A DNA stretch of 64,000 nt from Chrysoperla carnea (Eukaryota; Arthropoda; Insecta; Neuroptera; Chrysopidae): assembly GCF_905475395.1 (NCBI RefSeq), contig NC_058337.1, forward strand, positions 106,076,368 through 106,140,367. The letters are read 5' to 3'. The position numbers and the translations under genes were made by a program. The notes beneath the pieces are model-generated. The model searched no databases. It saw nothing but the letters and a program-made list of their open reading frames with translations, and was not told where the DNA came from. Every line of letters begins with the position of its first letter. The stretch's first letter is position 1. Below, in pieces: positions 33,624 through 42,605 of the stretch.

Positions 33624-36443
33624 TTATTGGCGTGTAGCTTGTAAAACACGTAATATGTTCAAAAACAAATTAATAATATCCAAATATAAGTTAATTGTTG
33701 CTAAAACATATTCTTCAGCGGATAATTTCTCCATCATCATATGCGTATCATATAAAATAAACAAACTAAACAAAAAGGCACCTGCACATGAAAATAATAG
33801 CTCTAGCGCAGACGATTGAATAAATATTTGTAAAATTCCACCGATGAAAAGTGCACACAAACCAGCAAATAATCTGTAAAAATAAATTTTCCGCTTAAAT
33901 TCAACTATACTGATAAAAGGCTAACCAATTAGCCAAAATAAGTGCACAATTACTAAAATAAAGGAATGTATTTATACGACTAAAACCGTTTTAAACATAC
34001 AGGGCCGGATTAACAAGTAGGCAGAAAAGGCAGTTGCCTGGGGCCCCCGATTTTAGGGGGCCCCCAAAAAATGAAAAAGACTTCTAAAATTTTCTTACAA
34101 ACATAAAATTCTAGAGAGTGAAAGGAAATATAATCAGAACTGAAAATAAATTTTACTCAAATAAATAAAACTCAATTGGCCGCATTCAAAAGGCGACGAC
34201 CGACGAACTAGACAAAGTTCCTAAAAAGGACATTTCCGACTACTTTGACAAAACTTGTAGTCATTTGTATAAGATTCTAATGGAAGATCAATTAGCCGAT
34301 GTATTTCCTAACACAGAAATAGCTCTTCGGATTTTTCTAACATTAATGATCACAAATTGTTCTGCCGAACAATCCTTCTCGCAATTAAAAAAAAATCAAA
34401 GCTGCTGAAAGAGCTACAACGCGACAAGAGCGATTCGAGATGTTAGGTATACTTTGCATTGAGTCAGATTAAGTTTGTATTTTTTAATCGAAAAAAGAAT
34501 GGAACGGGCGTGAAAAAAGGGCCCCCAAATTGATGGTTGCCTAGGGCCCCGTTGAGGATTAATCCGGCCCTGTAAACATACAATCATGGCCTTGGCCGTC
34601 CAAAAACTCTTATGAAGGAAAAAGGCTTCACAGCTTTTGTAATTGGAGGGAAAATCGTTTGAGGATACTTACTGGCCATTGTAAACTAAATAAGCATACG
34701 CACAAAATCAATTTCAAAGGGAGCGATCTCTGCAGATTTTGTCATGAAGGAGGATAATCTAGAATAAGCATTATAAGTGAATGTGAAAGAAAGCCGACTG
34801 ATGCCAAGGAATATCCTAAAGTTTATTAAAAGTGTAGAGCTCTGGAGCACCTGGAACCTGAAGCAAGCGAGGTACAATAGACCAACATGATCACAGTATT
34901 GCAGATCTTTTAAGACTTACTCCTAATTCAAATTTAGTCTAATCTAACTTTGTACTTTTCAATTGTTTAGAAATGTTACTTACCCAAAACCAAGGAATGA
35001 AAAATCCCGTTTCGATTGTAGCGTATAAATTGTAATTCCACCAAATATTACTAATGTAATAATTAATGCTTGAAGCACAACCAATTGATCAAAATATGTA
35101 ACAATTGTTCCAATTGTATAAGCCTCTATAATTGTCTAGAAAATAAAACGTATAAATTTTAACTAAAACTGAAATTTGAGTTTAGATTTGTGACAAAGAA
35201 TAACTTACAAATACAGCTAGGAGAATCAAATTTGTTGGAAATTCTTTTCGGCATACAATCAATGGAATCAATATGATAAGATTTCCAATAAGACCAACTG
35301 TCAACAACCAATCACTAAAAAAAATATGAATTAATATTTTTTTTCAAAATGTGTACATTGCGTATTTTGAATAAAAAAAAAACAGGTGAGCAGCGGAGCT
35401 TGATCTTTAAGGTCATATTTTTCCTCATTAGATGGTTCTTATTACTAAATACTTTTTATTGAAATGAGATTTTTGTCTTTTCTAGAGTTATCATCCATTA
35501 TCTTTGATAATTTTTATGCTCCCTCAATATTAACGGCACAAAGCCTTAAAAACCAGGGAAAAGCATGATGTTTTAGACATAAAAAATTGATGATGCACGA
35601 TTTAGAGTTAGTCAGTCATTAGCTCTTATATTAAAAGGAGAAAAATTTGTCATCATAATTTACTCACTTTTGTGAGTAAAAACAGCCAGACTAATTTGGG
35701 TACAGGGTCACTGAGGCGTTAAATAGAACGAAGTAGCGGACTCGTAAAAAACTGTGTATAACCACGTTTAGATCATTTACTGTGTTCAGTTGAAACTCAC
35801 AAAAATACAATTGAAAACGGGTGGTGGGACTCTTGGCAAAACACTGCCAAAATTACTACCAGCTTCATAACTTGGATTTCTCAGATTATTTCACTTTTAG
35901 GGGCTGTATGTAAGACGACGAATCATTCATACAAATTATCTGCACCTGCAGGAACTCAGGTATAGGATAAAAGAGTCCGATATCTTGGATCCTTTCAATT
36001 CAGGGTGCAATCTCGGCAGAGAATTTCTACGCGACCTCAAGAGAATCTATCTGAAAATAGCACCTCTTACCCGGAAACCTATTACCTCCGGTTGAAGCAT
36101 TGACCTCAGTGAGAGCGAAGAGAACGCCTTAGCCTAGGTTTTAGGGACTCATTTGTGGTACCCCTCTTTTTAGTATTATTATTATTATTACTCACTTTTG
36201 TTGTACAAATAATTTAGCATTTGAAGAAGTAACAATAACCGCAGATACAAAAACAGTCAATAAAATTTGCGTACTTAATAATCCATAAACCTTTCGTATA
36301 AAAGCAATTCGAACCTCTTTGGTTGCATTCAAAACATTGTTTCTATATCTGAAATCATTCTCAATGCTTTCCTCATTATCAGAATCTAATTTTCCACCTC
36401 GTTCACAATCTTCCTCGTTTAATATTAATGGAACAGTAGTCAT
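33624..36443 (-). CDS. Tmbim4: TMBIM4/Lifeguard-4-type membrane protein (GAAP)
   Basis: Four coding exons: 36196-36443, 35209-35314, 34984-35135 and 33624-33873, giving 251 residues. The sequence is a Bax-inhibitor-1 superfamily protein with six to seven hydrophobic segments. IRKVYGLLSTQILLTV, AYTIGTIVTYF, YDTHMMMEKLSAEEYVLATI and NLYLDIINLFLNILR are typical of the TMBIM4 (Golgi anti-apoptotic protein) branch. Members lie in Golgi/ER membranes, lower calcium content of the stores and dampen apoptosis. A 5' UTR intron is likely: acceptor TTCTTTTACAG lies just before the start codon (UTR exon begins at 36454) and donor GCAA|GTAAGT is at 36582/36581. Intron 1 holds a truncated LINE and intron 3 a hAT element; neither disturbs the reading frame. 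Confidence 0.93.
34000..34572 (+). mobile_element. hAT DNA transposon, internally deleted
   Basis: It has perfect terminal inverted repeats CAGGGCCGGATTAA / TTAATCCGGCCCTG and an 8-bp target-site duplication TAAACATA (33992-33999 and 34573-34580), both diagnostic of hAT elements. The 573-bp body keeps the end of a transposase gene on the plus strand: YKILMEDQLADVFPN, then FLTLMITNCSAEQSFSQLK, then, one frame over after an A-run, KAAERATTRQERFEMLGIL. That is the hAT C-terminal dimerisation region. The element cannot encode a full transposase. It lies in TMBIM4 intron 3, antisense to the gene. Intact ends and TSD suggest modest age. Confidence 0.95.
35674..36187 (+). mobile_element. 5'-truncated LINE with RNase H remnant
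   Basis: Plus-strand frames show the RNase H signature LIWVQGH..GVK.NEVAD (compare WVPGHSGVxGNExAD). Downstream they show the C-terminal zinc region of RNase-H-bearing LINEs (VVGLLAKHCQNYYQLHNLDF, FRGC, DDESFIQIICTC), interrupted by stops. The 3' end is a (TTA)n tail at about 36174-36190. A target-site duplication TTACTCACTTTTGT flanks it (35660-35673 and 36188-36201). It is a dead 5'-truncated copy of an I/R1/Loa-like LINE, antisense to TMBIM4. The right TSD copy overlaps the exon 1 splice donor (see findings). Confidence 0.9.
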
Positions 36444-36582: not shown

Positions 36583-37692
36583 TGCATATACTTGTATTCG
36601 TTATATATTATAATTCCAAAAATATATTCTGGATAATAATATCCAAATTTCACAAAAATTTCCAAGAGAACTTCAAAAAATTATGGTGAAAGTTGCCAAG
36701 TGTCAAATTGTATATTATAGTTTATAAAATTACAAAGTATTTTACGTCGTTTCAGTGTAAGTGGCGCCATTATTGTCAATACAAAAATTGCATTGAAGAT
36801 AAAAATAATTAGGTTGTTTAATACCTATACGAAGGACGCTTTTTCGGATCGATTTCAGGAATTTCTTTTCCTTGGAAAATATTTTTTTTCCAGCCCAATA
36901 AAAATTAACATAGTTTATTTAGGGGTAATTAATTAGTACCCAAAAAAACTCAATCTTGTAATCATTTAGCTTCAGCATTCGGTTTCAGGGATGTCATTTG
37001 AAATTTTATGAGTTTGGAAATACAAAAATAAAATAAATTTGGCTTCTAATGATATTAAACTACAGTATGGCTATAGGGGAAAATATGATAAGTTTTCAGA
37101 AGCAATTTCCCAATAATGACCAAAACGACTCTTACTATTCGACAAATAATTATGTCAGTTTGTTTACATCACTTCTGCTGGAAGTTTATGATAAATTTTA
37201 TCAAATTTTTGCGTAAAATTGATTAAAATTTACAATATGCATGTCAAAATAAACATTGGTTTATTCTAATTTGTTCGAAACAGCTCAAACAAAACTGGTA
37301 GTAATTTTTTATCCATAAAAATTTTTTATGCCAGCGTATTTATAATAAAACCGTGCAATGTATAATAAATATCGTCATTATTTAAGCACTGATCACGAGT
37401 GATATTCATTAATCTTATGAAAGTCAAAAGGTCAAATGTTTAATATCGAATTTAGAAAAATTGACGTCGAATCACATAAACTTGAGCGCATTTAGAAAAT
37501 TTGTTGCGTTTAATAAACAACAATAATAAATATTCGTATCTAAAATTAATATACTTGATAATATTTTGATAACTTGTAGTTGAGTGGTTGCACGATTTTT
37601 TATATCATCAAGGGCATTTTAATTTATACTTAGATCAGATTACTGCAAACCACTGTTGAGTTAAGAAGTGTTTTTAAATAATTGTATAAAAA
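36583..37692. promoter_or_regulatory. TMBIM4-GOT1 head-to-head intergenic region
   Basis: About 1.1 kb separates the probable TMBIM4 UTR exon from the GOT1 start codon. AT-rich; no TATA box or repeat stands out clearly from the background. It is assigned as a promoter region by gene arrangement only. Confidence 0.4.

Positions 37693-42605
<4,913 letters not shown>

Follow-up and report, generated by a model that had tools for sequence, protein, structure and literature searches.

The locus analysed here raises the question of how a gene can carry the same 5' splice site twice, once on either side of a LINE remnant, and still be read in frame. In the window (the whole stretch of Chrysoperla carnea DNA that was analysed, 64,000 nucleotides) the 14-mer TTACTCACTTTTGT occurs in two copies which are offset by 528 nt and separated by 514 nt (Table 1). 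Read on the strand of the gene it is ACAAAA followed by GTGAGTAA, that is, the last six bases of an exon and the first eight of an intron, and a complete donor is contained in each copy. An earlier note on this DNA had described a 14-bp target-site duplication that carried the last exon bases and the whole donor to both sides of a LINE; its coordinates proved to be exact, with 14 of 14 bases identical between the copies. The 14-mer was found 10 times in the 559-Mb assembly, both window copies included (30 times for the reversed letters), and because the genome-wide count is so low, two copies 528 nt apart are beyond chance expectation. Since the last TTA can be counted either as tail or as duplication, the duplication is 11-14 bp long.

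The gene, the LINE remnant and its borders

Table 1. Features of the locus (window coordinates)
Feature	Position	Strand	Remarks
First coding exon, Bax1-I (TMBIM4-like) gene	36196..36443	-	ATG at 36443; 248 coding nt
Second coding exon	35209..35314	-	Intervening intron 881 nt with the 528-nt insert, 353 nt if this is subtracted
Outer target-site copy, ACAAAA/GTGAGTAA	36188..36201	-	First G of donor 36195; read as the used donor
Inner target-site copy, second complete donor	35660..35673	-	First G of donor 35667
5'-truncated LINE remnant, C-terminal ORF2 region	35674..36187	+	Antisense relative to the gene; internal deletion at 35745/35749 probable
LINE (TTA)n tail	36170..36190	+	Last TTA common to tail and target copy
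Predicted hairpin UUUACUCAC-AAAA-GUGAGUAAA	35659..35680	-	At the junction of the inner target copy and the LINE 5' end

A protein of 251 amino acids was joined from the exon translations, the later exon junctions being placed by eye, and it matched the Bax1-I family (PF01027) with an E value of 1.3e-50. This is the domain of TMBIM4 (LFG4); the name TMBIM4 is that of the earlier note, and the analysis covers the Bax1-I domain only. When the outer donor was joined with the acceptor preceding 35314, the sequence ...LFVQQ-NDWLLTVG... resulted in frame, and the junction with the exon 35314-35209 reads ...AKLFVQQNDWLLTVG... without a break. The upstream donor copy is thus predicted from the sequence to preserve the frame, as had been proposed. 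The exon that had been called exon 1 is indeed the first coding exon, but it may not be exon 1: an acceptor-like ...CATTCTTTTACAG stands upstream of the ATG, and a further exon preceding the first coding exon is possible.

When the protein was searched against its own genome, no close second copy was found, the best place outside the gene having 43% identity. Near the end of contig C1 there are two uninterrupted frames about 154 kb apart, one for COX1 (G000:C1:138886126-138887466, 542 aa, free of stops under the standard code) and one for a Bax1-I protein (G000:C1:139041934-139042563, 239 aa); they may represent bacterial DNA, for instance of a symbiont, that was included in the assembly. Two further pieces were seen in the gene region of the window. 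Positions 34169-34408 resemble the dimerisation region of hAT transposases (PF05699, E 3.6e-4, with 20.7 bits under the cut-off of 21.4), and 34563-34757 contain what we take to be a second LINE-like C-terminal fragment (LTGHCKLNKHTHKI...CRFC), for which a Pfam search gave no match. An open frame on the plus strand at 37690-37812 looks like the start of an aspartate aminotransferase and may be part of a neighbouring gene.

With window positions 35600-36260 as query, at least 47 matches, the window copy itself included, were obtained from the 40 candidates scored out of 296 first-look candidates. The other matched copies (designated by L numbers) were 66-85% identical over the matched parts. 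Local alignments placed the homology with the family copies at 35749-36195 and 35679-35745. The window copy probably has an internal deletion at 35745/35749, because five relatives (L010, L020, L025, L026 and L034) carry about 100-146 extra bases there; L030 aligns straight across this point without extra bases. The relatives extend upstream to differing 5' ends, and at the 3' end many copies close with a core resembling CCAYTTGCGGTACCCCTCTTNTGT, to which a TTA-type tail is joined. This is the variable 5' truncation and constant 3' end of LINEs, with a simple tail in most, not all, of the copies read. The 3' core had 587 matches in the genome at up to three mismatches (none for the reversed control), and RNase H (PF00075) was found upstream of the matched region in the translations of L070 and L067 (E 6.6e-6 and 1.3e-5). 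Core matches and RNase H together make this a multicopy family with homology to LINE ORF2, which we take to belong to an R1/jockey/I-like clade.

On the 3' side the tail, ending at 36187/36190, runs directly into the repeat. On the 5' side BLAST homology starts at 35679, and the preceding TGAGTAA (35673-35679) resembles, allowing for one indel, the TGAATAA of L010, L020 and L022, a match read by eye where the MAFFT alignment itself placed no such gap. The same spot has TGAAGAA in L025, TGAACAA in L026 and TAAGTAA in L034. The earlier note had put a truncated antisense LINE on the exon/intron boundary and had named LINE boundaries that miss the two repeats as an observation that would speak against it; in alignment to the family copies the homology fills the gap, and the borders adjoin both repeats.

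Target duplications, age of the copy and the inner donor

For target duplications, 62 tail positions were scanned against the upstream DNA (L038 and L057 are one copy taken twice, and two minus-strand positions are spurious), and the control was the same scan applied to DNA shifted by as much as 500 nt. Scores of 12 or more were reached at 7 of the 62 tail positions (window, 14; L015, L049 and L069, 13; L036, L050 and L076, 12) and at none of the 62 control positions, where the maximum was 11. Perfect duplications were read in L015 (13/13), L049 (13/13), L050 (12/12), L069 (13/13) and L079 (11/11), and imperfect ones in L036 (15/16), L038 (12/13) and L021 (13/14). The repeat of L076, 16 nt with one mismatch, was judged to be chance, lying far outside its 50-nt-long LINE. 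Most of the 62 tail positions had no recognisable duplication. Where duplications can be recognised, the family appears to make them about 11-16 bp long, and the target-site duplication of the window copy fits this range. No duplication was recognisable for L010 (best score 6, control 7), and because this copy sits on a donor, edge insertions are not always recognisable by their duplication. The insertion of L021, which has a 13/14 duplication, may be inside a coding exon; L021 had been considered as an acceptor-side twin of the window copy and was dropped from the boundary cases, the frame seeming by eye to be continuous on both sides.

A tree was built from 35 rows, namely the window copy and 34 others covering the region (L038 and L057 are the same copy). 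In it the terminal branch of the window copy was 0.27 long, rank 29 of 35, and its nearest relative was L010 with 74% identity. Compared with 14 less diverged copies, the window copy differed at 61 of 255 well-agreed sites. The differing sites were spread over codon positions 1, 2 and 3 as 18, 19 and 24, and the pattern suggests that the copy decayed once it had inserted, not that it belongs to an active lineage of its own. Judged by this divergence, the window LINE is old. A hand calculation with 24% change per site gives a neutral chance of 0.76^14 = 0.02 for an untouched repeat, or 0.05 for 11 bp; these low values are a hint only, because the case was chosen for its intact repeat.

Use of the inner donor would retain 528 nt and lead at once to an in-frame AAG TGA, giving 83 amino acids with the stop as codon 84. 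The earlier note had said that use of the inner copy would pull antisense LINE into the mRNA; since the UGA follows immediately, there would be no long read-through, and little of the LINE would be translated. Like the duplication, the borders and the frame, this stop and the prediction of a hairpin can be read from the DNA itself. The predicted hairpin has 9 bp and an AAAA loop, and the inner donor forms its 3' arm. In 61-nt folds the inner site had a z value of -3.1, none of 200 shuffles being equally stable, and the outer site -0.2. With flanks of 60 and 100 nt both donors were mostly paired, the mean unpaired fraction being 0.33 for the inner and 0.27 for the outer one, and among the 62 GTRAGT sites of the window 27 were equally or less unpaired than the inner donor and 17 than the outer. 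Because longer flanks pair the outer donor too, the accessibility argument is valid for local structure only. Of the 62 GTRAGT sites 4, the inner donor among them, had a perfect complement of 8 nt in the 60 nt that precede them.

These data bear on two other readings of the repeat. It could have arisen by chance, or through a local duplication that took place later and had nothing to do with the LINE: the TTA is also tail, which leaves 11 informative bases, and the controls reach 11. We consider this extremely improbable, as the repeat coincides exactly with the two ends of a LINE, duplications of 11-16 bp occur in related copies, and the excess of high scores at the tail positions over the control persists with L076 judged chance. 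Alternatively, the inner donor might have been kept by selection as a poison donor, the use of which yields a truncated message (83 aa) that is destined for decay, with the hairpin tuning it. The inner copy is intact at all 14 positions while about 24% of the adjoining LINE has changed, and the full hairpin is one substitution away from the TGAATAA shared by three relatives, the other variants standing in L025, L026 and L034. Against selection it must be held that the neutral probability is no lower than 0.02-0.05 in a case picked for its intact repeat, and that 4 of the 62 GTRAGT sites have a comparable complement nearby; we therefore regard a selected poison donor as unlikely. An ordinary insertion whose inner donor is a decoy remains the preferred reading.

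Copies of the family near exons

A sample of 100 of the 587 core matches (46 exact, 54 with one mismatch) was read 3' of the tail. Donor-like sites were defined by a weight matrix built from assumed frequencies, with a threshold of 8, and by at least 30 open codons, and the expected counts were based on the window together with the distal flanks at 40 loci. Between -6 and 60 nt from the tail there were 9 donor-like sites where 1.85 were expected (P 1.3e-4, about five-fold). Farther away there were none at 60-120 nt (expected 1.68) and 3 at 120-180 nt (expected 1.58). Over the 12 settings run, P ranged from 8e-7 to 0.03. On the 5' side of 40 copies, 4 donor-like sites lay within 60 nt and 4 more in 60-700 nt, and on their tail side these copies had 2 (L053 and L078). 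The host introns of L081, L036, L075 and L052 look short, about 65-100 nt by our estimate, and short introns may explain why the family lies close to exons.

A Pfam match at E 0.01 or better was obtained for 11 of 24 flank frames. These were Ras (L104), laminin G (L106) and kinase (L099, 0.0095); on the acceptor side clathrin/VPS (L081), kinesin (L135), kinase (L105) and nucleoporin (L075); in the set chosen by similarity CAP (L036), PCAF_N (L011) and G6PD (L031); and fn3 (L054), which is adjacent to another element of its locus. The scores of L099, L081 and L105 were under Pfam's own cut-off. No Pfam match was found for the remaining 13 of the 24 frames (L053, L078, L090, L125, L127, L132, L139, L114, L131, L052, L021, L010 and L014). 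The copy L010 lies exactly on a GTGAGTA donor (about 1501-1516 of its locus), which ends a Ser/Lys-rich open frame that extends over 199 codons or more.

The excess of donor-like sites near the tails, and the position on a donor of L010, the nearest relative of the window copy, would be accounted for if the family preferred exon edges or splice donors, so that the insertion was targeted rather than lucky. Exons, however, also adjoin the 5' ends, as seen in the 40 copies, and several host introns look short. A genome-wide search for GTRAGT beside the core gave 3 hits, the window among them, and the permuted motif gave 3 as well; furthermore, L010 came from a search whose query contained the donor. 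A preference of this kind seems to us rather unlikely, and donor targeting was dropped as a claim in view of the equal counts for the permuted pattern and of the 5' ends near exons. Very unlikely is the combined proposal that this LINE lineage repeatedly hits exon edges, that long duplications make such insertions survivable, and that the spare donor was selected as a hairpin-gated poison site.

Proposed history and comparison with known systems

The locus is very probably the result of a LINE insertion at a 5' splice site which duplicated the donor, left the outer copy to be spliced and made the inner one a decoy that is probably silent. The observation of the earlier note is confirmed by the sequence, and its interpretation, with the corrections given above, is supported. 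Before the insertion the site would have had a single GTGAGTAA followed by ATTATGATG, without the LINE. We infer that a LINE bearing a (UUA)n tail entered the 5' splice site of the TMBIM4-like gene by target-primed reverse transcription. The gene strand would have been cut just past GTGAGTAA, leaving a 3' terminus (...TAA) able to pair with the (UUA)n tail, and the other strand 11-14 nt off, within the exon. Fill-in would then have placed the last exon bases and the entire donor at both ends of a 5'-truncated antisense copy. The exon-side donor would have kept splicing, and the protein would therefore be unchanged, with the intron lengthened to 881 nt from an original 353 nt. The inner copy is probably silent, because it is far from the exon, is predicted to form a hairpin with the 5' edge of the LINE and is followed by an immediate stop.

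The locus offers a natural experiment, in which a single transcript contains the same 5' splice site twice, at a distance of 528 nt, in different positions and surroundings. It illustrates how a target duplication longer than the splice motif can render an insertion into a splice site harmless, and it raises the question why this LINE family sits near exons.

In its 5' truncation, its tail, the 11-16 bp duplications of the family and the RNase H of two relatives, the element resembles non-LTR retrotransposons with RNase H and a TTA tail; compared with R1/jockey/I-like LINEs, the presumed clade, the window copy is the 3' end only. Splice-site duplication by insertion is an already known kind of event, of which this locus is a very clean example. 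The merle SINE of dogs lies in reverse orientation at the intron 10/exon 11 edge of PMEL, with a 15-bp target duplication over the splice-site region (PMC7349775). Both cases thus have a reverse-oriented retroelement on a splice site and a target duplication spanning the splice-site region, but merle is a SINE on the acceptor side which disturbs splicing depending on tail length, whereas the window has a LINE on the donor side and an apparently intact frame. In introners, too, a splice site can come from the target duplication, and most of them were found to spread by DNA transposition (PMC9860276). Introners create new introns, whereas the LINE of the window lengthened an existing one: no new intron in coding sequence was found here, the intron running past the insert to an ordinary acceptor with 353 nt remaining. 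Finally, mammalian intronic LINEs are described as depleted near exons in zones of 50 bp in human, 100 bp in mouse and 2000 bp for full-length elements (PMC3088655), whereas the sampled copies of the present family show an excess of donor-like exon edges close to their tails.
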